Positions 314 to 64,000 of a DNA stretch of 64,000 nt are shown piece after piece (positions within the stretch are counted from its first letter, which is position 1; each line of letters opens with the position of its first letter). A program made the translations under genes and the position numbers. Source of the DNA: a virus; the IMG/VR virus record IMGVR_UViG_3300023184_007611, positions 37,046 through 101,045 of that record. One strand, written 5' to 3'. Below the pieces are notes generated by a model, which saw nothing but the letters and a program-made list of their open reading frames with translations, did no database searches and had not been told where the DNA came from.

Positions 314-2044
314 TTAAGTTTTTATAGCAAAAGTCGTATAACCTTCAAAAGATGCAGTACATTGAACCCAATTAGAACCGCTTGCTATTAATTGAACAGG
401 AGAAGAACATTTATACCCAGAATAACTTCCATTTTGATTTTGCCCTAATTCACCGAAAAGATTTCTTCCCCAACTCCATAATGTTCCATCTTTTTTTATT
501 CCAATTGTATAAGTAGCACCACATGAAACTTGCAACCAATTATTTCCAATTGCCTTTACAGGTGAGTAATTAAATTCTTGATTACTTGTTTGATTGTTTC
601 CAAATTGTCCAAAGCCATTAGTGCCCCAACACCAAAGTGTTCCATTTTTTTTAATCGCTGCTGTATGAGTTTTACCTAAAGATATTTGGTCCCAGCCTGT
701 TCCAATTTGGCGAATTTTAGGATTGCCATCATCTTCGCCTTTTTGATAGTTTAAACCCCAAGTCCAAAGTGTTCCATTTTTTTTAATCGCTGCTATTTTG
801 TTGTAACCACAGAAAACCTTATCCCAATCATTTCCACCAATTTTTGTTTGAAATGGTGCTCCTAATGATTGTATTCCTGAATTAGTCCACAAGAATCCTG
901 ATAAATTAGATCCCCATACCCAAAGTGTACCATTTGTTTTAACTGCTGTTGTTATGTAATGGCCACAAGATACTTGCTTCCAGTTATTACCAAATGCTAC
1001 AGTTTGAGTTGGAGATGATCTTCCAGTCCTATAATCATTCCAACCATTTCCTAATTCCCCATATAAATTTAACCCCCAAGTCCAAAGTGTTCCATTTTTT
1101 TTAATGCCTGCTGTGTGGTAGCTTCCACAAGAAATTTGCTCCCAGTTAAAATCTTTGTCGCAAGTTTGAACTGGCTCTTTTACAAAATTATCTTTATCTG
1201 GCTTATTTATATCAACACTTTTATTATCTCCAAGTTGATTGTATAAAAATGACCCCCAACACCACAATGTTCCGTTTGTTTTAATTCCTGCTGTATGTTG
1301 AACTCCACATGATACTTCTTTCCATTTATCTGTTCCAATTATAGTTTGAATAGGAGAACTTTTATCAATTGAATTACCGTTTCCTAATTGATATGAATCG
1401 TTTCTTCCGAATCCCCATAATGTACCATAAGAAGTTGGAGTTGGTGCTTCTGGAGGCAAAGGACGACTTATTATTTGTGATTTTTCGGCAATTACATATC
1501 CTGGCTTTTTCCAAGTGCAATAATTATCTTCTGGACTATAAATATATATTTTACAAGTCCTTATAAATTCAAATTTTTTAAGTCTTCTATTGTAATAATA
1601 AAAGTTTATATCTCTTTTTATTGGAAATTTAATGTCTTTACATTTTGAAATTCCGTAATATGATGAATTTTTTAAATCTTTTGAATAAAAATAACTTTCT
1701 GGCACTGGATCTTTAGTTTCTATGGTTATTTTAATTGAATACTTAATCCAAGGAAGTCCAATTTTGCATTTAGAATTATTGCATTTTCCTAAACTTACTG
1801 TTACTCCAACATTATAGTCTGTATAGTCACTTTTAATAGGCAATCGTAATCCTTGGATTATATAATTTTTATAATCTCTATGCATAATAAATCCGTCCCA
1901 ATTACTAAGCTCATTAGTCTCTGGTTTTAATGAAAAAATATGATTTCCAAACTTTGGGTTCTCAATTAGAACATTTAAAAGTTTTCCTTTTTTTAAATTA
2001 TCTCCTCTAAGACAATCAAACCAAGGTGTATTCTTAGATGCCAT
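314..2044 (-). CDS. RCC1-repeat beta-propeller protein
   Basis: A 576-residue protein. Residues 1 to about 200 have no recognisable family. From about residue 205 to the end there are seven or so RCC1-type blades of about 50 residues with the signature GTLW-x-WG-x-N-x-x-G-x-LG and a second strand W-x-Q-(V/I)-SCG-x-x-HTA-(A/G)-IK. RCC1 repeats fold as a beta-propeller and in phages usually occur in fibre or baseplate-associated proteins, so a virion surface role is the likeliest guess; no enzymatic motif is visible. No signal peptide or membrane segment is seen. A second RCC1 protein lies at 54596-55870, sharing the blade pattern but not the N-terminal domain. An AAAGGAAAT ribosome binding site precedes the ATG. 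Confidence 0.8.
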   Translation of the reverse strand: MASKNTPWFDCLRGDNLKKGKLLNVLIENPKFGNHIFSLKPETNELSNWDGFIMHRDYKNYIIQGLRLPIKSDYTDYNVGVTVSLGKCNNSKCKIGLPWIKYSIKITIETKDPVPESYFYSKDLKNSSYYGISKCKDIKFPIKRDINFYYYNRRLKKFEFIRTCKIYIYSPEDNYCTWKKPGYVIAEKSQIISRPLPPEAPTPTSYGTLWGFGRNDSYQLGNGNSIDKSSPIQTIIGTDKWKEVSCGVQHTAGIKTNGTLWCWGSFLYNQLGDNKSVDINKPDKDNFVKEPVQTCDKDFNWEQISCGSYHTAGIKKNGTLWTWGLNLYGELGNGWNDYRTGRSSPTQTVAFGNNWKQVSCGHYITTAVKTNGTLWVWGSNLSGFLWTNSGIQSLGAPFQTKIGGNDWDKVFCGYNKIAAIKKNGTLWTWGLNYQKGEDDGNPKIRQIGTGWDQISLGKTHTAAIKKNGTLWCWGTNGFGQFGNNQTSNQEFNYSPVKAIGNNWLQVSCGATYTIGIKKDGTLWSWGRNLFGELGQNQNGSYSGYKCSSPVQLIASGSNWVQCTASFEGYTTFAIKT

Positions 2045-29228: not shown

Positions 29229-30269
29229 ATGGGAGCAACTTCAAACGAAGGCGTAGGTCAAGGTTCAGTATCAAATATTTATCCAAAAATTTTAAATGAT
29301 GTTGTAAAATCAGAAAATCTTGTTTCTTCAGGTTTTACTGGCATATTAAGCATTGTTGGTAGCGATACCAATGCTTTAACTATTATATCAGGGCCAAGTG
29401 ATGGAGGCCCAAGTGATAATGCACAAAACTTGAATTTATATGGTGGAACTGGTAATTCAACTGGCGACAACGATGGTGGTAATATTGAAATTATTGGTGG
29501 TGTTGGTAATGGCGATGGTGAAGGTGGTGATGTTTTTATCGGTGGTGGTGAAGGTGGCCCAGATTCATCTTATAGCGGAGAGGTAACCATTGAAGGTGGT
29601 TATGGTGCTGATGATGAGGTTGATGGTGGTGATGTTTATATTTATGGTGGGCCAGGAAGTTTTGACAGCGGAAACTTTGGTAATGGTGGCCAAATCTACA
29701 TGGCAGCTGGTACTGGAGCTAGTGGCGGTGGTAATGGCGGTGATTTTACTGTATATGCTGGTGAAGGAAGAGGAGATGGTGGTAATGGTGGCAGTATTTC
29801 ACTTAATGCTGGCGATTATGATGGCGATTTCTCGCAAGCTGCTGGATATGTAGAAATAGTTGCTGGTAGTGTTTCTAATGATGGTACTGTTGCTGGAAAT
29901 GTACAAATATATGCTGGTAATTCCTATTCCAGTAAAAATGTAATTGGTGGAGATATTAATCTTCAAGCAGGTCTTGGCTCAGTAAATGGTCGTGGTGGTG
30001 ATGTTAACTTGGTTGCTGGCAATAGTGCTGGAACAGATAGGGGTGGTGATATTAATTTGAGTGCTGGCAATAACTCTGGTGCTGGCAGAGAAGGTCATGT
30101 TTATCTAAATTCCATGCCAAGAATGCCAGTATATGCAAATGCTACCGCAAGAGATGCTGCTGCTGGCATTGTAACCAACGGCATGTTTTGTTACAACACA
30201 GCGACAAGCAACATAGAAGTTTATGTTGGTGGAGCATGGAAGAGTGTTAACACATCTGCAATTGTTTAA
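29229..30269 (+). CDS. Gly-rich beta-helical fibre protein
   Basis: The 346-residue protein has a strong ribosome binding site (AAGGAG). From about residue 60 to 290 it is built of short units G-G-(D/N)-(V/I)-x-(I/L)-x-(G/A)-G-x-G, about 18-20 residues each, as in glycine-rich triple beta-helix stalks. The C-terminal part, RMPVYANATARDAAAG, followed by GMFCYNTATSNIEVYVGGAWKSV, is a common end module of phage tail fibres and their look-alikes in large viruses. No enzymatic site is visible. An intrinsic terminator directly follows, so it is a single-gene unit. A receptor-binding or decoration fibre is the likely role. Confidence 0.8.
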   Translation: MGATSNEGVGQGSVSNIYPKILNDVVKSENLVSSGFTGILSIVGSDTNALTIISGPSDGGPSDNAQNLNLYGGTGNSTGDNDGGNIEIIGGVGNGDGEGGDVFIGGGEGGPDSSYSGEVTIEGGYGADDEVDGGDVYIYGGPGSFDSGNFGNGGQIYMAAGTGASGGGNGGDFTVYAGEGRGDGGNGGSISLNAGDYDGDFSQAAGYVEIVAGSVSNDGTVAGNVQIYAGNSYSSKNVIGGDINLQAGLGSVNGRGGDVNLVAGNSAGTDRGGDINLSAGNNSGAGREGHVYLNSMPRMPVYANATARDAAAGIVTNGMFCYNTATSNIEVYVGGAWKSVNTSAIV

Positions 30270-30290
30270 TTACAAATAAACTATTAAACT

Positions 30291-30327
30291 AAAAACTCTT
30301 TTTCATTAAATCGAAGAAGAGTTTTTT
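30291..30327 (+). terminator. Intrinsic terminator after the fibre gene
   Basis: AAAAACTCTTTTTC pairs with GAAGAAGAGTTTTT (one mismatch) around an 8-base loop and is followed by more T residues. It lies 21 bases after the fibre stop codon. Confidence 0.8.
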
Positions 30328-30351
30328 TATTTTCACACTTATATAAAGTAC

Positions 30352-30807
30352 ATGGAAATTAATAAAAATTACTGGATTAAAGAATTAGCTCCTCCTTATT
30401 CGCCTAATGAAGAAGATATAAAAATTTATAACTATAATTTATTAAAAGGAAGTGTATTGCTTTTAGGTTGTACACATAAGTTAATAACTTTAAGTGATTG
30501 TCAAATGGATATAGATCCTTGGTATGAAGGTTCAAATGTTATAGTACAAGAATGGACAACAAATAGAAAATCTTACACGAATATTATAGGAGATGGAGTT
30601 TTAAATTTTACCAAAGAAGCAACTGATAATTTATTATTAATGTGTGCTAATCACAGTAAAGTATTTGTAGCAAGATCATTTAATGAGAAGTTACCAGAAA
30701 TGAAGATAGCTAATTTCTTCCCAACCGAAAATGATTTTAATATAAAACCTAAACAAACAATAAAATTCGATAAATATTCTTTTTACATTTGGAATTTTAT
30801 TTCATGA
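30352..30807 (+). CDS. Small methyltransferase-like protein
   Basis: A 151-residue protein. LKGSVLLLGCTHKLITLSDCQMDIDP looks like the first half of a class I SAM methyltransferase: a strand and loop followed by an acidic strand end (DIDP). YTNIIGDGVLNF could be the next strand with its conserved Asp. The classical Gly-rich loop G-x-G-x-G is replaced by LGCTH, so SAM binding is uncertain. It ends with a 4-base ATGA overlap with the PaaK-like gene, meaning that the two are coupled. Together they may form a small modification pathway. Confidence 0.5.
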   Translation: MEINKNYWIKELAPPYSPNEEDIKIYNYNLLKGSVLLLGCTHKLITLSDCQMDIDPWYEGSNVIVQEWTTNRKSYTNIIGDGVLNFTKEATDNLLLMCANHSKVFVARSFNEKLPEMKIANFFPTENDFNIKPKQTIKFDKYSFYIWNFIS

Positions 30808-44119: not shown

Positions 44120-46561
44120 ATGAATAAAATATCTAATCACGAATTGAAAAGTAATAATCTGGTGAAGAAACTTGCTTTATTTTATAGAAAAAATAATAAT
44201 TACCCATGTCGCAAAGACAATTTAGCTTTATATAATTTTTTACTAACTAAAAGAAGCGTCTTTAAAAGTAAATCAATTAAAAATAAAATATATCCTTCGG
44301 ATATAGAAGTTGCTAAACTACACGGACTTCCAGATGATTGGCTATCCACTAAAAATGAACAAGAATTGAAAAGTAATAATCTGGTAAAGGAACTTGCTTT
44401 GTTCTATAGAAAAAACAATGATTATCCATGTAAAAAATCTAATTCAATTTTATATTATTTTTTACAGAATAAAAGAAGAAGCTTTAAACATAAATCAAAT
44501 AAAAATAGAAATAAAAATAGAAATAAAATATATCCTTCAGATATAGAAGTTGCTAAATTACACGGACTTCCAGATGATTGGTTCTCAACTAGTAATGAAC
44601 TTGAAAGTAACCAAAAAATAATCAAAATTGCAGAACATTTTAAAAAACATGGAACTTATCCTTCTAGAAAAACATTATTAGGCAAACACTTAACTAACAA
44701 ACGATCTAGTAAAGATGGAACATATAAAATATATCCATCAGATATAGAAGTCGCTAAAGCTCATGGACTTCCTGATGATTGGATGTTACTCATCAATCGT
44801 GAATTTGAAAGTAACGAAAGAATAAAAGAACTTGCACAAGAATTTGTAAGACTTGGAAATTATCCTAATCGTAATACTAAACTTGGACAACTACTAGCAT
44901 GGAAAAGACACATATATAAAAAATACATTATTGGCAAACAAAAAAAATATAAGGCTCTTTGGTATCCTTCAGATATAGAAGTAGCTAAAATTCATGGACT
45001 TCCTGATGATTGGCTCTCCATTAGCAATGAATTTGAAAGTAATCAAAAAGTAATTGAAATAGCACAATACTTTAAAACACATGGAGCTTATCCTGATTAC
45101 AATTGTAAAATTGGAGTTTCATTGTCAAATAAAAGACTAAGTTATAAAAAACACACTAATAGTAAAAAATGTAATCTCAAATGGTATCCATCAGATATAG
45201 AAGTCGCTAAATTACACGGACTTCCAGACGATTGGATTATAAATACTGATCTTGAAAAGGAAAGTAATCGAAAAGTAATTGAAATAGCACAATACTTTAA
45301 AACACATAATGATTATCCTGATTACAATTGTAAAATTGGAGTTTCATTGTCAAATAAAAGACTAAGGTATAAAAAACACACTAATGGTAAAAAATTTAAT
45401 TCCAAATGGTATCCATCAGATATAGAAGTCGCTAAAGCTCATGGTCTACCAGATGATTGGATTATCAATAATAATTTTGAATTAGAAAGTAACCAAAAAG
45501 TAATATTATTAGCACAAGAATTCACTAAAATTGGAAACTATCCTGATATAAATTCTACAAATGGAAAATTCTTAAAATATAAAAGAAAAGCATTCAAACA
45601 CTATACCAATAAAACTAAATCAAAATATAAATGGTATCCATCAGATATAGAAGTCGCTAAAGCTCATGGTCTACCAGATGATTGGATTATCAATAATAAT
45701 TTTGAATTAGAAAGTAACCAAAAAATAACTAAAATAGCACAATACTTTAAAACACATGGAATCTATCCCAATAGTAAAATTGGGATTGGGAGATTTTTAA
45801 AAAATAAAAGAAAAGCATTCAAACACTATACCAATGGAACTAAATCAAAATTAAAATATACATGGTATCCTTCAGATATAGAAGTCGCCAAAGCTCATGG
45901 GCTTCCTAACGATTGGATGCTGATTATTGATTTTGAAAAAGAAAGTAATCAAAAAGTAATTGCACTAGCACAAGAATTTAAAAAAATCGGAAACTATCCA
46001 GACAATTATTCTTTAAATGGAAGACTGTTGATTACTAAAAGACAAGCATTCAAACACTATACCAATGGAACTAAATCAAAATTAAAATGGTATCCTTCAG
46101 ATATAGAAGTCGCTAAAGCTCATGGGCTTCCTAACGATTGGATGTTAGTTAAAAAACAAAAATCATCATTAGGAGAAAGAAAAACAAATTTTATACTCGA
46201 AAAATTTAACATTAAACCAATACAACAGTACAGACATAAACTTTGTGTCAATAAATTGTGCCTGCCTTTTGATTTCTATTTCAATAAAGATAACTTACAC
46301 TATTTCATAGAATACAACGGAGAACAACATTATAAACCAATCTACGGAAAAACACAAATTATAAAAAAAGAACATTTAAAATATGTTCAAACAAACGACC
46401 TAATTAAATTAAACTTCTGCAAAAAAAATAACTACCCACTTCTAGTAATACCTTATTGGATAAAAGATTTCGAAAACCTTATATCAGAATTCTTAAAAAC
46501 TACACAATTTGATCCAAACTTCGCTCAACCAATTATTCCAAATTTACCTGAATTAAATTAA
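44120..46561 (+). CDS. Nuclease with nine helicase-associated-like repeats
   Basis: The 813-residue protein carries nine tandem repeats of 68-80 residues. Each has a helix ESNQKVIEIAQ-x-FK, a G-x-YP turn, a G-x-x-L-x-x-KR helix, a K-rich loop, and the closing WYPSDIEVAKAHGLPDDW. This resembles the helicase-associated (HA) DNA-binding repeat. After the last repeat comes SLGERKTNFILEKF and a nuclease domain: PFDFYFNKDNLHYFIEYNGEQHYKP and PLLVIPYW, closely matching the ends of the two zinc-ribbon nucleases at 31852 and 33275. It lacks the tag. I infer a programmable-looking sequence-reading nuclease or homing-type enzyme. A repeat-wise DNA code is not shown. Confidence 0.75.
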   Translation: MNKISNHELKSNNLVKKLALFYRKNNNYPCRKDNLALYNFLLTKRSVFKSKSIKNKIYPSDIEVAKLHGLPDDWLSTKNEQELKSNNLVKELALFYRKNNDYPCKKSNSILYYFLQNKRRSFKHKSNKNRNKNRNKIYPSDIEVAKLHGLPDDWFSTSNELESNQKIIKIAEHFKKHGTYPSRKTLLGKHLTNKRSSKDGTYKIYPSDIEVAKAHGLPDDWMLLINREFESNERIKELAQEFVRLGNYPNRNTKLGQLLAWKRHIYKKYIIGKQKKYKALWYPSDIEVAKIHGLPDDWLSISNEFESNQKVIEIAQYFKTHGAYPDYNCKIGVSLSNKRLSYKKHTNSKKCNLKWYPSDIEVAKLHGLPDDWIINTDLEKESNRKVIEIAQYFKTHNDYPDYNCKIGVSLSNKRLRYKKHTNGKKFNSKWYPSDIEVAKAHGLPDDWIINNNFELESNQKVILLAQEFTKIGNYPDINSTNGKFLKYKRKAFKHYTNKTKSKYKWYPSDIEVAKAHGLPDDWIINNNFELESNQKITKIAQYFKTHGIYPNSKIGIGRFLKNKRKAFKHYTNGTKSKLKYTWYPSDIEVAKAHGLPNDWMLIIDFEKESNQKVIALAQEFKKIGNYPDNYSLNGRLLITKRQAFKHYTNGTKSKLKWYPSDIEVAKAHGLPNDWMLVKKQKSSLGERKTNFILEKFNIKPIQQYRHKLCVNKLCLPFDFYFNKDNLHYFIEYNGEQHYKPIYGKTQIIKKEHLKYVQTNDLIKLNFCKKNNYPLLVIPYWIKDFENLISEFLKTTQFDPNFAQPIIPNLPELN

Positions 46562-54595: not shown

Positions 54596-55870
54596 ATGGC
54601 TAAAAAAAATTTATGGTACTGGGGAATCAATCATCATGTTAGAAGTACTCCTCCAGATCCTCGTAATGATTTTCTTCCGCATTTGGTAGGTGCAGGACTT
54701 AATTGGAGTTGGAAGCATATTACAGTTAATAGGGAAGGAGCACATGGTATAACTGAAAATGGTGATTTATACGGATGGGGAAATGATTGTGATTATGCTG
54801 AGGTTGCCACAAAAGTACCACCTTATTACAAAAGAGTTTGGTATTGCGTTTCTTTAACTGGTAAAGGTAGAAAAGAATGCAGGCCAGGACAACCAGGCTA
54901 TGATCCAGAATCTGGATTTATTAAAAATGGTCGTATTGTAAGACCAGAAGAAAAATGGAAAGATGTATCAAGAGGCGTTAGACATGTTGCTGGAATTACT
55001 AGAAGTGGAAGATTATATAGCTGGGGTACAAATTTCAACGGAGAACTTGGAAGAGGTAGAGAAATCGAACAACCAGGTAGATTGAAACCAAATCAAGTTG
55101 TTTCTTATAAAGGCATAAGGTTTTATCCTGTTGAAATAATGATTGGTGGAAATGATTGGATTCAGGTAAAATGTGGCTTTAAGTTTTCAATAGCATTAAA
55201 AGAAGATGGCTCAGTATGGTATTGGCCTACTAATGGTGGAAGAGGTTGCTCAGATTGTTTTAAATTCCCTAAACCACTTTGCAAAGGACAATTTTGTGGT
55301 CCTAAAAAAATAGCTACTGATTTCAAAAAAATCGCTTGTACATTTGACAGTGGCCAAGTTTATGGTCTTAAAAAAGATACTACAATTTGTAAATTTATTA
55401 GGTCATTTGGGAGTGAAGCAGAAGCTTCAGTTTTAACTCAATTAGGAGATGGATGGAAAGATGTTACATGCAATTTTAATGATGGAGGCGGTGGAATAAA
55501 AGAAGATGGAACTTTATGGACATGGGGACCAAATTATAGTGGCGAGCTTGGGATTAATAAAAGCAAAAATGAAGTTGTATATTCTTCTTCTCCAGTACAA
55601 ACAACTTTAGGTGGTAATGATTGGAAGTCAATTACTACTGGCAATAATTCTAATACAAAATATGCTATAAAAAATAATGGTAGTTTATGGTGTTGGGGAG
55701 GTAATTCCACAAACATAGGAATTGGTGGTCTTAATTTTGAAGTTCGTGAACCTATACAAAATATTAAAGATAGCGTAGGATGGAAAATGGTATCTACAGA
55801 TGTATTAGGAACATTAGCTATAAGAGATGTAAAATTTGAACCTACAACAACAGTACCACCTAATAATTAA
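54596..55870 (+). CDS. RCC1-repeat beta-propeller protein
   Basis: A 424-residue protein with about six RCC1 blades: [86 protein letters not shown] and the ending [11 protein letters not shown]. Two Cys-rich inserts ([19 protein letters not shown]) interrupt the blades. It starts [14 protein letters not shown] directly with a blade, without the N-terminal domain of the copy at 314. AAAGGAATAATAAA precedes the ATG. Probably a virion or attachment protein. It is followed by a non-coding array of 15-base repeats. Confidence 0.8.
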
Positions 55871-57821: not shown

Positions 57822-58583
57822 CAACAAGATGAATGTTTTCACATTCTGGTTACTTGTTTGGACTATATCATCACCTTCAACATTACTTGGTTAGGTGTCG
57901 TGAGCATAAGTCTCTGAACCTTCCTCATTTTAAAGAGGCTCGGCTGCTGATTGCCCAATTTCCCATAGTTTTATAACTTTCGCACCCGTTGTTTCCAACC
58001 ATGCTGTAGTCATGGGAACTATAAGGGTATTCCAGCAATTTCCACGATTCTCATTCATAGATTTCTCTATGATGGCTCGTTGCAAATCAAGATATTTATG
58101 TAGTCTACCATGTGTTCTTCTGTCCATCACCATAAGGTTTTTTACATCGTTATTCTTATAATTATTATCAACATGATGAATTACCATATTGTAAGATAAT
58201 TTTCCAAGAATACTTTTTGCAATTTCTCTGTGTTCACATTTCGCCCCAATCATTTTATATTGATTAGAACTCAATGTTTCTTTTGCAAGCTTTTTATTTA
58301 GTTTCCAACAATCAGAACAATGTTTTTGTTCTTTTCGCCAACCTAAATATTCTTTCTTGCAAACTTCACAGATTATTTTAATCCTTCTGGTAAATGGATC
58401 ATTTTGGTAACGATTCTTAGCACATTCCCTTTTGTGCTTAAGATAACATTCCCTACACATCTTTCGACCAACATCACGATCTTGATTGCATTTAATGCAC
58501 ATCTTTGGTTTTTTGCTCATGTTTTAAATTAGTAATCCTAATTAAAAAATTGGCATACTTATCAAATTAATACATTAAAAGTC
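57822..58583 (-). mobile_element. Group I intron with HNH ORF in tRNA-Leu(UAA)
   Basis: The 762-base insert follows exon 1 ending in U and ends with G at 57822, as group I introns do. The core elements are plain on the minus strand: P/Q-like AATTGGGCAATC and AGCAGCCGAGCC (57960-57937), R element GTTCAGAGACT (57919-57909) and S element GATATAGTC (57869-57861). R and S form the P7 guanosine-binding helix. An ORF for an HNH endonuclease fills the 5' part and its last codons run into P/Q. The intron-plus-endonuclease is a mobile element that could home into uninterrupted tRNA-Leu genes. Confidence 0.9.
57930..58520 (-). CDS. Intron-encoded HNH homing endonuclease
   Basis: A 196-residue protein starting MSKKPKMCIKCNQDRDVGRKMC. 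Three Cys pairs (CIKCN, CRECY and CEVC with CSDC) form zinc knuckles in the first 90 residues. The nuclease core is MVIHHVDNNYKNNDVKNLMVM followed by RTHGRLHKYL, the H-H, N and H of an HNH site. The ORF starts 63 bases into the intron and its end overlaps the conserved P/Q core. It would cut intronless tRNA-Leu genes and start homing. Its composition and basic charge are usual for such proteins. No strong ribosome binding site is seen. Confidence 0.88.
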   Translation of the reverse strand: MSKKPKMCIKCNQDRDVGRKMCRECYLKHKRECAKNRYQNDPFTRRIKIICEVCKKEYLGWRKEQKHCSDCWKLNKKLAKETLSSNQYKMIGAKCEHREIAKSILGKLSYNMVIHHVDNNYKNNDVKNLMVMDRRTHGRLHKYLDLQRAIIEKSMNENRGNCWNTLIVPMTTAWLETTGAKVIKLWEIGQSAAEPL

Positions 58584-58623: not shown

Positions 58624-59007
58624 TTAGTTCCACCAAGCAGTAGTTTTACTTTCTTGGTTAAAATCTTTTTTATGAAGTGTTTTTATTACTTTATCAAATT
58701 CTTCTCCCAATTCATGGATACGAGAGATTGAGATTAAAACATGAGTTCCCCCAATTGCAGTTTCTTGAATTTCTGTAAGTCTTTCAACAACTTCTTTGAA
58801 CAAGTCTTTAGTTGCAATAGCAAGGTTTCTTAATTCTTTTTTATTGGTGACTAGATCAATTGTAAAAGAATCTTGCAATACTGCAATTGCTCCAAGACTA
58901 ACCTTTATCTTATCTCCTTTTTTAATTTTCTTCAATTCATTTAATGAATCTTGAAGGAACATAGCCAAGGCATCGAACAGTTTTCTAGTTTTATCATCTA
59001 CTTTCAT
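58624..59007 (-). CDS. Hypothetical helical protein upstream of the tRNA
   Basis: A 127-residue protein, MKVDDKTRKLFDALAMFLQDSLNELKKIKKGDKIKVSLGAI-like, nearly all helix with heptad-like Leu/Ile spacing and balanced charge. It ends with SKTTAWWN. AAAAGGAGTGGTAAT is an excellent ribosome binding site. It leads the minus-strand transcript that also holds the split tRNA, 5 bases on. A conserved promoter-like motif lies 36 bases upstream. No family recognised; a small nucleoid or scaffold protein is conceivable. Confidence 0.6.
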   Translation of the reverse strand: MKVDDKTRKLFDALAMFLQDSLNELKKIKKGDKIKVSLGAIAVLQDSFTIDLVTNKKELRNLAIATKDLFKEVVERLTEIQETAIGGTHVLISISRIHELGEEFDKVIKTLHKKDFNQESKTTAWWN

Positions 59008-59043: not shown

Positions 59044-59076
59044 GTATTCGGTTCATAATATTGGAAAATTCCAACT
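59044..59076 (-). promoter_or_regulatory. Promoter-like motif copy 1
   Basis: On the minus strand AGTTGGAATT begins exactly 23 bases before AACCGAATA. The same pair with the same spacing occurs upstream of two plus-strand genes nearby (59641 and 60886). It sits 36 bases upstream of the start at 59007. Confidence 0.6.
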
Positions 59077-59158
59077 TTTAATTAAAATATTTTGCTTTTT
59101 ATAAAAAACTTTATAATAATAACTTCAGGGTGTTTATCATTTTTTCAGGAGATGTATT

Positions 59159-59626
59159 ATGAGATTATGTGTAAGTTTATTGTGTTTAAGTTTATATGGT
59201 ATTGCATATGGAAATCAGACAGGCAAGGTATATGAAGCAGATCATGCTTTAGTAGGAGTAAATGGAATATATTTCATAGAAGGCAGAGAAAATGCTAAGA
59301 AGTATTTAGACAAGATATTTAATGATATATGGTTTAAACAGAATTTTAAGATAAAGAAGCCAGTAGTAATAAGAGAAACGAATAATTATAAATTAACTTC
59401 CACAATAGGAAGTGCAGTAGCTAATGGTAGAGGAACAATATCAGTACCAGATGGTGGTTGTTACAATTTTAATGTGATACATGAGGTAGCTCATCATATA
59501 AGGCCACATGGACAGCATGAAAAGGAGTTTACTAAAATGTATTTAATATTAATTGAACATTTCACTAACCCTAATGTTGCAAAGGAGTTACGGAATAATT
59601 ACAAGAGATTTGGGGTACAATTTTAA
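59159..59626 (+). CDS. Secreted HExxH metallopeptidase-like protein
   Basis: A 155-residue protein with a signal-peptide-like start MRLCVSLLCLSLYGIAYGN and a strong AGGAG ribosome binding site. The motif CYNFNVIHEVAHHIRPHGQHEKEF at about residue 102 has HEVAH (zinc ligands His, His and catalytic Glu) followed by a third histidine in HG-x-x-H or further on, as in small bacterial HExxH hydrolases. ANGRGTISVPDGGCY resembles the strand before the active-site helix. Export would place it in the periplasm or outside. Cell-wall or surface-protein cleavage late in infection is a possible role, not shown. Confidence 0.7.
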   Translation: MRLCVSLLCLSLYGIAYGNQTGKVYEADHALVGVNGIYFIEGRENAKKYLDKIFNDIWFKQNFKIKKPVVIRETNNYKLTSTIGSAVANGRGTISVPDGGCYNFNVIHEVAHHIRPHGQHEKEFTKMYLILIEHFTNPNVAKELRNNYKRFGVQF

Positions 59627-59640
59627 AATTAATTAAAAAT

Positions 59641-59673
59641 AGTTGAAATTATTAAGTTGGCAGAACCGAATAA
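59641..59673 (+). promoter_or_regulatory. Promoter-like motif copy 2
   Basis: AGTTGAAATT, 13 other bases, then AACCGAATAA, placed 64 bases before the CobS-like start. Spacing between the two blocks is identical to the other two copies. Confidence 0.6.
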
Positions 59674-59736
59674 GGTGTAGGATCAAAGAGTTGTGTGTTA
59701 CAACTTAAAGATTATAAATTTTATAGGAGAATACAG

Positions 59737-60837
59737 ATGGAAGCTCAGAAAGTAAGTCGTGTTGATAACTTGGAAGTCATTTACCAAGAGTTCGTAGATG
59801 GTAACAAGCCAATTAAAGCTTCGACATTAAAAGAAGAATACATGACTAGGTTTGGTGATGATAAACCAGCATCATTGACAACTGTTATTTACAGTTTTAT
59901 AAATAACAAGAAAAATAGTAATATTACAAAGTTAGAAACTTCAGAAGAAACTAAAGGAGAAGAAGTGAGCAATATTTCTAGTTATTCAGTAGTTAGTGGT
60001 GATTTAGCGTTTATGAAAGTGCCAACGAGTAATACTACTTATCACATTAGCAAGAAAGATGAGGATTTCCTTAAGATTATTGATGATGATAGTAAGACTG
60101 GATTGATTGCTAATATCATGTTAATTGGTAGTCATGGTTGTGGTAAAACAGAAATGGCTAAAGAGTTTGCTGCAAGGACTGGTCGTCATTTCTTCCATAC
60201 CAATTGTGCAATGTATCGTGAACCTAGAGATTTCTACGGATACAAAGGTGCAAAATCTGGAAGCACCTATTGGAGAAAGAGTGATTTTGTTCAAGCTATA
60301 GAAAGGCCAAATACTGTAATTTTGTTAGATGAGTTCAATCGTTGTTCTCCAATGGTAGCAAACAGCTTGTTTAATCTCTTGGATGACAATCGTTGTGCAG
60401 TATTTGATGAGATTGGAGAAGTAAAGGTAGGTGCTGGCAATGTTATCTTTGGAACAATTAATCGTGGTGTTCAGTATACTGGCACAATGATTAGTGATGC
60501 AGCAGTCATGGATAGGTTTGGTAATACTGTAGAAGTACATTACTTACCAGATAACCTAGAGATTGATGTATTAGTTAAAAGAACAGGCATTGACAAAGCT
60601 AATGCTAAGATGTTGGTACAACTAGGTAATACTATTCGTTCTAAGGCTGGTGAAATGGGTAGTACGATTAGGGCTTCTGTATCAACAAGGTTATTAATTA
60701 AGACAGCGGAGAGATTTAAGACTATGGGTAAAGCATCGTTTGATTATACTATTCTTCCTCTTTACAGCAAAGAAGGTGGAGCTAATAGTGAAAGAAGTCA
60801 GATTACCCAAATGATTCAGATGGTGTTTGGAGATTAA
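59737..60837 (+). CDS. CobS/MoxR-like AAA+ ATPase
   Basis: I start at MEAQKVSRVDN (GGAG upstream), giving 366 residues. An N-terminal region of about 110 residues precedes the AAA+ domain: Walker A GSHGCGKTE at about residue 131, Walker B VILLDEFNRC at about 194, sensor 1 IFGTINRG and a sensor/arginine region DAAVMDRFG. This is the MoxR/CobS (AAA_5) type. With a VWA protein gene as its neighbour it forms a MoxR-VWA pair, like the cobaltochelatase CobS-CobT subunits to which many phage genes are named. In phages the true role is unknown; chaperone-like remodelling is likelier than cobalamin synthesis. Confidence 0.87.
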   Translation: MEAQKVSRVDNLEVIYQEFVDGNKPIKASTLKEEYMTRFGDDKPASLTTVIYSFINNKKNSNITKLETSEETKGEEVSNISSYSVVSGDLAFMKVPTSNTTYHISKKDEDFLKIIDDDSKTGLIANIMLIGSHGCGKTEMAKEFAARTGRHFFHTNCAMYREPRDFYGYKGAKSGSTYWRKSDFVQAIERPNTVILLDEFNRCSPMVANSLFNLLDDNRCAVFDEIGEVKVGAGNVIFGTINRGVQYTGTMISDAAVMDRFGNTVEVHYLPDNLEIDVLVKRTGIDKANAKMLVQLGNTIRSKAGEMGSTIRASVSTRLLIKTAERFKTMGKASFDYTILPLYSKEGGANSERSQITQMIQMVFGD

Positions 60838-60851
60838 TAAGTTTATGGTTT

Positions 60852-60881
60852 GCCACTTTTCCTTAAAAGTGGCTTTTTTTT
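60852..60881 (+). terminator. Intrinsic terminator after the ATPase gene
   Basis: GCCACTTTT and AAAAGTGGC form a 9-base-pair stem with a 4-base loop followed by eight T. It separates the ATPase and VWA genes, so each has its own control. Confidence 0.9.
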
Positions 60882-60885
60882 AAAT

Positions 60886-60918
60886 AGTTGAAATTTTGGT
60901 ATAGTTGTAACCGATAGA
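60886..60918 (+). promoter_or_regulatory. Promoter-like motif copy 3
   Basis: AGTTGAAATT, 13 other bases, then AACCGATA, right after the terminator and about 40 bases before the VWA gene. The position between terminator and gene supports a promoter. Confidence 0.65.
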
Positions 60919-60958
60919 CACATAGAGTTATTTATAACATTAAATAGGAGATTTTAAA

Positions 60959-63055
60959 ATGGGTAGTGGATACATGGATTATTGGAGAAATGATGGGAAG
61001 AAGCGTAACACATACATACATGATGATTATGCTGATAGTATTTACGATTACGATTCTGCAACTGAAAACAAGGTAACAAAGAGTTATCAAGATTATTCAT
61101 CTAGGTATAAATCTGGATATAGTGCTTCATCTTATTGGTTGCAGTTTTCTAGTAAGACTGATGATAAGCAGCAAAAATTAACAGATGGATTAGCGTTTGT
61201 TTGCAGAAGTGTAAACATTATTCGTCATCGTTATGGTAAAGGTGATGAAAAGTCTTTGGTTGTACAATGGGCAAATGACATTACTCAAATCAATACACAT
61301 GACAATAACATTGTTTATTTAAATCCTAGTCCATTAATTGAAACTAGCAGTTTCACAGAGAATCAAAGGTACGATGTTATTATTGGTCAGGCATTACTAA
61401 GTTCTGTTCAAAAGCATTTAGTAAGTCTTGATTGTAGTTTTTTCTCAAACAGTTTATTGAGCATAGATAGCAATATAAACATTGTTTGTGAAGGAGAAGA
61501 ATTAAAAGTATTCTCATTAGATAAAGATGGAAAAAAGACTGGTGTAATCAATTTCATTGATGGTAGGTTTGACAAAGAAGGTGTACAGATTTTTCAAGAG
61601 CATATAGTGTATGGTGGCAACAAAGAAAGTTTTTCTGCCATTGATATATCTGCTTTATATTTAAATGGTTGTGTACAAGTATGGAGAGCAATTGAACAAG
61701 TCATTGCTGAGACAGCTATTAGCAATGAGTATAGGGGAAGTATTGCATATCTTTATAGTCATCGCAATTATTACAATGATGCAAAGTATATCAAGTCATT
61801 GAAAGATGGATTAAAGATATATGATGAAGAAAATGCAGAATTACTTTCTATAGCATTAGCTGTTCACAATGTATTGAATGACAATGACAGGATTTCACTT
61901 ACTGATGTTCATAGTTTTTATCAACCAGTAGTTGATATGATAAGTAACATTTTGCTTACAAAGCCAGATTGTGATTCAGAAGCAAGGTTATCTTCTTCAC
62001 TTCATTTTGGAGTAGTTCTTAGTGAATACATATCCAAGAAGAAGAAAGAGATGGAAGAAAACAAAGATACAGAAGGAAGCGGTAAGGTCGGCAATAGTGA
62101 CATGAACAGGATAGTTGATCTTACTAAGAATGGTCTTACACCATCATTAGTTAATACAGTTTGCAAGAAAGACAGTCATTGCAAGCAAGTGGCACAGATT
62201 GGCGGGTTAGAAGTTGGAGATGAGAAGGCAATTAGGAGTATGGAGTTAGAAGGATTAACGAGTGGGTTTAGAGATGTTGATATTACTGAGGAATCTTGGT
62301 ATAGGAGTAAGGAGAGTAACTTTATCAAGTATACTAATTATAAGAACACTTATAGGCAGTACATTGATATGTTACGAGAGAGGTTATTTGTTCGCACTTT
62401 AGATTTATCAGCACCAGAGTTCAACATGAAAACTGGTAACATTGATGAAAGTTCTTTATGGAAGTTATGCGACAAGGAAGATGAGAGTAATGCAATATTC
62501 TATCAGAATGATACACCGCAGAAGATAGAAAAGTGCAGTATTAATATCTTGTTTGACAATTCTGGTAGTATGTCATCGAATGACAGGATAGAGGTATGCC
62601 GTCAGATTGGTGTGATAATGAATGAAGCAGTAAGGGGCATAGCCAATATAAAGTTAAACTTTTACAGTTTTACTGATAGTAAGTTTTACAAGTTTGAAAA
62701 TGCAGAAGATTTAGTAGCCATGAAAGAGCAGGGTGGAACAGATGAGGGTGGAGCAATGGCTTGTGTTTTGCGTGAGATAAACAATAAGCGTGTAGCTGAT
62801 TTATCAGAAGGTATTGATGGTTATGGCAAGACATTTTTCTTAGCTATTGGTGATGGTCAGACTGATGTAGACAAGGTAAAAAAGAGTTTAGATTTAATAA
62901 AGCGTGATGGTGTAAAGTTTTTCCATGTAGGCATTGACAATGCTTATGATGCAAAGTATGGCAAGGCTACATATGGTGAAGATAGTTTTTCAATTATACC
63001 AACTGAAAATCTTCTTTATGTTATGTGCAATTTCTTAGTTAAGGCTTTGACCTAA
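60959..63055 (+). CDS. VWA-domain protein (CobT-like partner of the AAA+ ATPase)
   Basis: A 698-residue protein. Residues 1-500 are mixed helical and polar, with a Lys/Glu-rich stretch near 355-375. The VWA domain starts with ILFDNSGSMSSNDRIEVC at about 530, with the D-x-S-x-S metal-ion site, then KLNFYSFTDSKFYKF, the TDEGGAMACVL segment (conserved Thr/Gly of the MIDAS), and FFLAIGDGQTDVDKVKKS. This is the CobT/VWA type that works with MoxR-like ATPases. Length matches phage CobT-like proteins (600-700). A terminator follows. AGGAG lies upstream of the ATG. Confidence 0.87.
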   Translation: MGSGYMDYWRNDGKKRNTYIHDDYADSIYDYDSATENKVTKSYQDYSSRYKSGYSASSYWLQFSSKTDDKQQKLTDGLAFVCRSVNIIRHRYGKGDEKSLVVQWANDITQINTHDNNIVYLNPSPLIETSSFTENQRYDVIIGQALLSSVQKHLVSLDCSFFSNSLLSIDSNINIVCEGEELKVFSLDKDGKKTGVINFIDGRFDKEGVQIFQEHIVYGGNKESFSAIDISALYLNGCVQVWRAIEQVIAETAISNEYRGSIAYLYSHRNYYNDAKYIKSLKDGLKIYDEENAELLSIALAVHNVLNDNDRISLTDVHSFYQPVVDMISNILLTKPDCDSEARLSSSLHFGVVLSEYISKKKKEMEENKDTEGSGKVGNSDMNRIVDLTKNGLTPSLVNTVCKKDSHCKQVAQIGGLEVGDEKAIRSMELEGLTSGFRDVDITEESWYRSKESNFIKYTNYKNTYRQYIDMLRERLFVRTLDLSAPEFNMKTGNIDESSLWKLCDKEDESNAIFYQNDTPQKIEKCSINILFDNSGSMSSNDRIEVCRQIGVIMNEAVRGIANIKLNFYSFTDSKFYKFENAEDLVAMKEQGGTDEGGAMACVLREINNKRVADLSEGIDGYGKTFFLAIGDGQTDVDKVKKSLDLIKRDGVKFFHVGIDNAYDAKYGKATYGEDSFSIIPTENLLYVMCNFLVKALT

Positions 63056-63127: not shown

Positions 63128-63622
63128 ATGGAAGCTTTTAATGAAAAATCTGTAGCTGTAATAGCTAAAAATGCAGAATGGTCTTTTCTTTACGCAAGAG
63201 ATTTTTTAAAAGCACCTTTTCCTTTAGGTGAAAAGGCTATCAGTAGAAACTCATGTTATTCTTTTGCTTATGCTTTAAATGTTTTAAAAGCACCTTTTCC
63301 ATTAGGGGAAGTTGCGATTGCTAGAAGTGCAGAATGGTCTTGCAAATATGCACAATATGTTTTAAAAGCACCTTTTAGATTAGGTGAAGCTGTGATAGCT
63401 ACAAGTGCAGCTTATTCTTATCGTTATGCAAATAATGTTTTAAACGCACCTTTTCCATTAGGTGAAAAGGCGATAGCTACAAAAGCAAGCTATTCTTATT
63501 TTTATGCTACAGAAGTTTTAGAAGCACCTTTTAAATTAGGTGAAAAGTTGATAGCTAAAAGTCCAGCTTATTATAAGATTTACAAAAGGTTATTTCCAAG
63601 ACCAACATTTTTTACATATTAA
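63128..63622 (+). CDS. 26-residue helical-repeat protein
   Basis: A 164-residue protein built from five to six 26-residue units of the form (E/V)-x-AIA-x-x-A-x-(Y/W)S-x-x-YA-x-x-VLKAPFPLG. Each unit probably makes two helices with a turn at P-F-x-LGE, stacked as a solenoid. Similar repeats occur in proteins of T4-like phages, without known function. The start follows AAGGATAAGTTT. Another gene with the same repeat begins 10 bases after its stop. The high DNA identity between units suggests recent repeat expansion. A protein-binding role is likely by analogy with other solenoids. Confidence 0.75.
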   Translation: MEAFNEKSVAVIAKNAEWSFLYARDFLKAPFPLGEKAISRNSCYSFAYALNVLKAPFPLGEVAIARSAEWSCKYAQYVLKAPFRLGEAVIATSAAYSYRYANNVLNAPFPLGEKAIATKASYSYFYATEVLEAPFKLGEKLIAKSPAYYKIYKRLFPRPTFFTY

Positions 63623-63632
63623 GGATAAGTTT

Positions 63633-64000
63633 ATGAACGCACAAGAAGCTTATGATAATGCTTATATTGTACTTAAAAAACCTTGGCCAGAAGGTGAAGC
63701 TACGATAGCTACAGATGCGAGTTATTCTTTTTATTATGCTTACAATGTTTTAAAAGCACCTTTTCCGCTAGGTGAAGCTGCGATAGCTACAAGTGCGTAT
63801 TATTCTCTTTATTATGCAAGAAATATACTTAAAGCACCTTTTCCGTTAGGTGAAGCTGAGTTAGCTACAGATTCAGCTTATTCTTTTGGTTATGCAATTG
63901 ATGTTTTAAAAAGCCGTTTTCCAAAGGGTGAAGCTGCGATAGCTACAAATGCTCAATATTCTTATGAATATGCAAGAGATATACTTAAAGCACCTTTTCG
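63633..64000 (+). CDS. 26-residue helical-repeat protein, cut by the window edge
   Basis: The gene begins MNAQEAYDNAYIVLKKPWPEGE with the same leader AAGGATAAGTTT as the gene before. At least four repeat units are visible (ATDASYSFYYAYNVLKAPFP and relatives), and the frame is still open at base 64000. It is a tandem paralogue of the preceding gene. Number of units and end are unknown. Confidence 0.75.
   Translation, partial: MNAQEAYDNAYIVLKKPWPEGEATIATDASYSFYYAYNVLKAPFPLGEAAIATSAYYSLYYARNILKAPFPLGEAELATDSAYSFGYAIDVLKSRFPKGEAAIATNAQYSYEYARDILKAPF

Follow-up and report, generated by a model that had tools for sequence, protein, structure and literature searches.

Three short elements near the right-hand end of a phage DNA very probably (about 93%, on the sequence evidence set out below) belong to a real promoter class, whose copies combine a -35 element close to TTGAAA, a 17-bp spacer, a -10 block close to CCGATA and, six nucleotides further on, a TAG at the predicted start of transcription. 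A related phage, G001, carries 16 more. Both the sigma70-family geometry of the class and its position at putative operon starts, within a single non-structural arm of the genome, can be read directly from the DNA.

Three copies in the window

The window, i.e., the whole stretch of 64,000 nucleotides that was analysed, forms the right-hand part of a virus record of 101,045 bp, whose other 37 kb was also read; the gene calls are simple in-house ones. The features of concern, with scores from a PWM, are:

59046-59076, minus strand: P1, with AG-TTGGAA as -35 (59074-59069), a 17-bp spacer and CCGAAT as -10 (59051-59046); exact match to TTGRAA-N17-CCGA; 26.6 bits
about 59037, minus strand: predicted start of P1, in TTAG at 59039-59036
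58624-59007, minus strand: gene behind P1, a 127-aa protein with no Pfam or PHROG match
59641-59671, plus strand: P2, with AG-TTGAAA as -35 (59643-59648), a 17-bp spacer and CCGAAT as -10 (59666-59671); 34.5 bits
59678-59680, plus strand: putative initiator TAG of P2, a third fixed element; predicted +1 is the A at 59679
59737-60837, plus strand: gene behind P2, a MoxR/CbbQ-type AAA+ ATPase (AAA_5, E 4e-19; CbbQ_C; phrog_249)
60852-60881, plus strand: intrinsic terminator directly 5' of P3, a 9-bp stem and a T-run
60886-60916, plus strand: P3, with AG-TTGAAA as -35 (60888-60893), a 17-bp spacer and CCGATA as -10 (60911-60916); 46.1 bits
60923-60925, plus strand: putative initiator TAG of P3, a third fixed element; predicted +1 is the A at 60924
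60959-63055, plus strand: gene behind P3, the 698-aa partner of the AAA+ ATPase, by blastp to h88 and h91 of G001

A sequence-only reading had described two blocks whose starts are 23 bases apart, and both the positions and that spacing hold in all three copies, though the spelling it gave for the second block, AACCGAWA, does not: AACCGA is followed by AT in two copies and by TA in one, AACCGAWA being exact only at 60886 and AACCGAWW fitting all three. The gene at 59007-58624 begins 40 bp downstream of P1, where the flanking genes are divergent. P2 is 67 bp upstream of the ATG at 59737 and 16 bp behind the stop codon of gene 59159-59626, and P3 is 44 bp upstream of the ATG at 60959, the T-run of the terminator ending 5 bp before it.

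How often would such a pattern be expected? There are exactly three matches to TTGRAA-N17-CCGA in the 101-kb record, all of them intergenic and 40-67 bp upstream of called gene starts, versus a mean of 0.03 in shuffled intergenic DNA, and when spacers of 8 to 26 were tested the three at 17 compared with three scattered over the 18 others. As P1-P3 are all within 5 kb of the contig's right-hand end, the genome arm to which they belong has probably been cut off, and this record and that of G001 are probably both incomplete fragments.

Sixteen further copies in a related phage

A scan of the strict motif pattern over 2.9 million viral contigs matched 11, among them G001 (IMGVR_UViG_3300023184_000046; 120,029 bp, 29.8% GC), in which the motif recurs many times and several proteins of the window have relatives, including the AAA+ ATPase, its partner and the repeat protein at 63128-63622. 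Its 14 exact copies, 13 of them wholly intergenic, are to be set against 0.04 in shuffles, and two near copies found by matrix bring the number to 16, so that the genome-wide search proposed earlier for further copies near gene starts had a positive outcome. At a spacer of 17 there are 14 matches, versus three scattered over all 18 other spacers tested. Judged by midpoint, all 16 copies fall between genes; they share the minus strand and are confined to 78.7-119 kb, in the non-structural arm, and the baseplate arm has none. An unbiased count of dyads upstream of G001 genes ranked GTTG-N20-CCGA first, with 13 occurrences versus 0.07 expected. The PWM scan of G001 gave 16 sites of at least 29.5 bits and nothing from 8 to 29.5, the best of three shuffles reaching 15.6; since the PWM was built on these same sites, it is the gap, rather than the height of the scores, that counts as evidence.

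Could chance, or a mobile repeat, have produced this distribution? Some G001 copies have been duplicated together with their flanks, which is in keeping with a repeat, but about 15 are independent by flank identity and, amid unrelated sequence, keep the full consensus of identically spaced elements, TAG included. With the dyad, PWM and shuffle statistics, and the occurrence in a second phage, also contradicting it, this is the least credible of the explanations considered.

Anatomy of the promoter class

Alignment of 17 sites from both phages yields A-rich DNA, AG-TTGAAA, a 17-bp spacer beginning (wTTTG), CCGATA, N6 and TAG. In all sites the -10 block is CCGA followed by TA, AT or TC. The AG is invariant, neither it nor the TAG having been in the search pattern, and over the 17 sites the information in the TAG column exceeds that of more than 99.9% of random columns. 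The 17 bp between the two hexamer-like elements is within the 16-18 bp characteristic of the sigma70 family and, if CCGATA is the -10, the TAG sits where transcription should start: a fixed RTAG element follows the -10 at a distance of about 7-8 nt, and the leaders are compatible with a start there. A TATAAT-type -10, that of housekeeping sigma70, is lacking from the sites, and in the motif-bearing regions sigma70-type sites occur no more often than chance predicts.

Is the motif itself the core promoter, or does it serve a promoter beside it? At four G001 sites (117868, 108176, 107700 and 93186) the predicted RNA starts AGGAGG or AGGAG and has its ATG within 18 nt, and at a fifth, 106583, it is AGACAGATG. 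These predicted RNAs, with their initial Shine-Dalgarno sequences, leave no space for a downstream promoter, just as the terminator T-run adjoining P3 leaves none for an upstream one, which argues that the motif itself is the core promoter. For this reason among others it is quite improbable that a MotA-like phage activator binds the motif and recruits host sigma70 to an adjacent promoter. Dimeric activators can bind two-block sites with fixed spacing, and T4 MotA is a precedent for such a phage protein (PMC1524935), but the elements are arranged as in an initiator-bearing core promoter, no TATAAT-like box recurs at a constant position, several sites have only about 9 nt between CCGA and the Shine-Dalgarno sequence, and P3 adjoins the terminator upstream.

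Still less probable is that the element works in RNA, by processing or translational control, and not as a DNA promoter. It does sit before genes, mostly at leader distance; however, its invariant blocks keep a fixed distance around an unconserved 17-nt spacer, P3 comes directly behind a terminator, and in several copies the motif nearly fills the gap from stop codon to next Shine-Dalgarno sequence. What had been proposed at the outset, a promoter whose -10 is not that of sigma70, is by contrast strongly supported by the -35/17/-10 geometry, the start-site element and the placement at operon starts, and further by the 16 copies in G001 and by the fact that in several copies a second promoter would not fit on one of the two sides.

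Genes behind the promoters

G001 has two homologues of the ATPase behind P2, at 34-38% identity, each being the first called gene behind a motif copy of its own, at distances of 81 and 116 bp. The C-terminal part of the product of the gene behind P3 is similar to h88 (E 6e-13) and h91 (3e-10), which are paired with these MoxR homologues, and of the G001 arm set two members show CobT-VWA matches. No near-relatives of the window AAA+ and partner proteins were found in viral_contigs.

Several other features of the two phages deserve mention in their own right. A tRNA-Leu(UAA) gene in the window (58618-57773, minus strand) has, between U34 and A35, a group I intron of 762 nt (Rfam RF00028) at about 58583-57822, within which is an HNH ORF (57930-58520); the insertion site is that of the classical cyanobacterial and plastid tRNA-Leu(UAA) intron, here in a phage. 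Proteins with a 26-residue repeat (YSY-YA--VL-APFPLGE-AIA), found at 33 viral loci, are encoded at window 63128-64000 and in G001 (L143:8706-9870) and are related between both phages. The 813-aa protein of window 44120-46561 (plus strand) resembles DUF4379 treble-clef and HNH-annotated proteins of phages of Gram-positive bacteria. Of five RCC1-repeat (beta-propeller) proteins in the 101-kb record (window 314-2044 and 54596-55870, the others in L007 and L008), four are similar to a single G001 protein at 44-63% identity, as is, at 32%, the fifth (54596-55870). Lastly, TAATATATA occurs 2-50 nt upstream of many genes in the 101-kb record and in loci L137-L143, mostly in structural arms, the ATG being sometimes within about 10 nt (near-leaderless). 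Its enrichment over shuffles is weak, and it is possibly a second, late promoter class.

Distribution and host

At 33 loci with the FPLGE-repeat protein and 80 with the AAA+ ATPase, from other phages, the motif is absent except in G001, and within the material examined the class is restricted to the two records. Matches in cellular genomes look random. A clue to the host, or else a surface or pilus mimic, is a DUF1559/SBP_bac_10 prepilin-like protein encoded outside the window, at 29720-30676 of the record (L008:10720-11676), which has full-length relatives, 33-44% identical to it, in 25 of the 392 genomes sampled from the phylum to which a Planctomycetota MAG belongs. The DUF1559 family is a hallmark of Planctomycetota, and that points to a host which may be a planctomycete.

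Which factor reads the class?

The view favoured here, with a probability somewhat better than even, is that a phage-encoded sigma, together with the host core RNA polymerase, would read these promoters. In the holoenzyme with such an alternative sigma, region 4 would contact TTGAAA, melting would take place at CCGATA and RNA would start at the A of TAG. Less certainly, the sigma may be encoded in a portion of the genome that the contigs do not include and may act with the host core to switch on early or middle genes, e.g., the MoxR-ATPase/VWA cassette. The sigma-family profiles TIGR02937 and PF08281 have no match in the 101-kb record or G001, which counts against a phage sigma, although both are probably fragments; PF04542 and PF04545 have none in the 101-kb record. 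Searches by phmmer with ORFs from the sigma-match loci gave no convincing match, and a scan for the gp55 motif was also negative. RNA-polymerase beta' (PF00623) has no match in these two probably incomplete records, nor in the huge phages LR756511.1 (595 kb) and LR756508.1 (484 kb).

Each of those huge phages, whose similarity to the present two is distant, has several sigma70-family matches. The baseplate wedge of the former is 43.6% identical to that of G001, and the latter is the top-ranked phage match of the window's AAA+ protein. Jumbo phages without an RNA polymerase have been described as pairing phage sigma factors with the host core (PMC7824862), and this, with the presence of sigma-like proteins and absence of a polymerase match in the two huge phages, favours a phage sigma on the missing genome part. 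In both the motif is at background level, which weakens the case for their own sigma-like proteins as the relevant readers. By eye, unannotated ORFs of 236 aa (LR756508.1, locus L262) and 186 aa (LR756511.1, L263) are gp55-like.

On balance unlikely, though by far the most serious alternative, is a host alternative sigma, sigma28/FliA-like or ECF-like, with the arm wired to a host regulon such as that for motility. CCGATA is the core of the FliA box GCCGATAA, the consensus being from E. coli FliA sites (PMC4203485), early phage genes require a factor already present at infection, and neither record shows a phage sigma. Against a matrix built from those E. coli sites, the -10 half scores a mean of 6.4 bits, real FliA sites scoring 13.4 and the background 99.9th percentile being 6.0, for sites that had been preselected for CCGA; the base before CCGATA is A or T, not the G of GCCGATAA. 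At FliA spacing, however, the -35 averages -4.5 bits, near the background of -5.9, and reaches a fit only when 1-2 bp are added, and AG-TTG, invariant here, is no FliA feature. These are therefore not FliA promoters by definition, though a related factor could read them. Nor do presumed host genomes help: the 392 of that phylum hold two exact matches, not above the reversed control, one of them inside long open frames on both strands and the other in none, and a related pattern in cellular genomes is 5% intergenic versus 7% expected.

The original suggestion of a phage-coded reader thus stands in part. It is plausible in that related huge phages have sigma-like proteins and the presumed host phylum lacks the motif above background; it is weakened by the failure to detect a sigma or RNA-polymerase gene in the two incomplete records and by the resemblance of the -10 to the bacterial sigma28 (FliA) box. 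More broadly, and tentatively, a clade of lytic phages may have a whole genome arm under a sigma of chimeric specificity, either a phage sigma of new specificity or the host flagellar sigma. Were the latter true, early phage genes would be tied to it and infection would be possible only in motile cells.

Significance

For these uncultured phages, whose genomes are probably large and for which no isolate turned up here, there is now a sharp, testable promoter consensus. Transcription start sites and operon boundaries of the non-structural arm can be predicted from it, and it marks co-regulated genes, MoxR/VWA cassettes included. The class suggests a sigma factor, undiscovered or else repurposed, with a -10 preference different from the housekeeping one, and it illustrates that promoter classes are detectable from two metagenomic fragments by sequence alone.

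Comparison with known promoter systems

With sigma70 promoters the class shares five of the six positions of TTGACA and the exact 17-bp spacing, whereas CCGATA shares only one of six with TATAAT. The sigma32 -35 core is identical to TTGAAA, and its -10 box, CCCCAT, is no match to CCGATA. Sigma28 (FliA/SigD) promoters have the -10 core CCGATA and a sigma70-family layout, but their -35 is TAAA(GTTT) and not AG-TTGAAA, the nearest TAAA-like match here needing a spacer longer by 1-2 bp, and the TAG is conserved here. The spelling is thus chimeric, sigma70/32-like in -35 and spacing and sigma28 (FliA)-like in the -10, with no TATAAT.

Among phages, promoters of the AR9/phiKZ jumbo type, of which the AR9 late promoter is AACA-6N-TA/G (PMC5312081), also have a -10-like block, 6 nt and a TA initiator, but are read by phage multisubunit RNA polymerases, while the present class has a -35 and its two probably incomplete records lack a PF00623 match. 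T4 late promoters likewise have a -10 peculiar to the phage and recognized by a phage sigma (gp55) with the host core, but consist of TATAAATA alone without a -35, which is not the make-up of the present class; the two huge phages encode gp55-like proteins, as judged by eye, and none was seen in the two records. T4-type early promoters are similarly a highly uniform class that recurs throughout the early region, with a -35/-10 arrangement preceded by A-rich DNA, though they retain a sigma70-like -10 (PMC1524935). A literature search found no earlier report of the consensus described here; it is new, and the mechanism is of a known kind.
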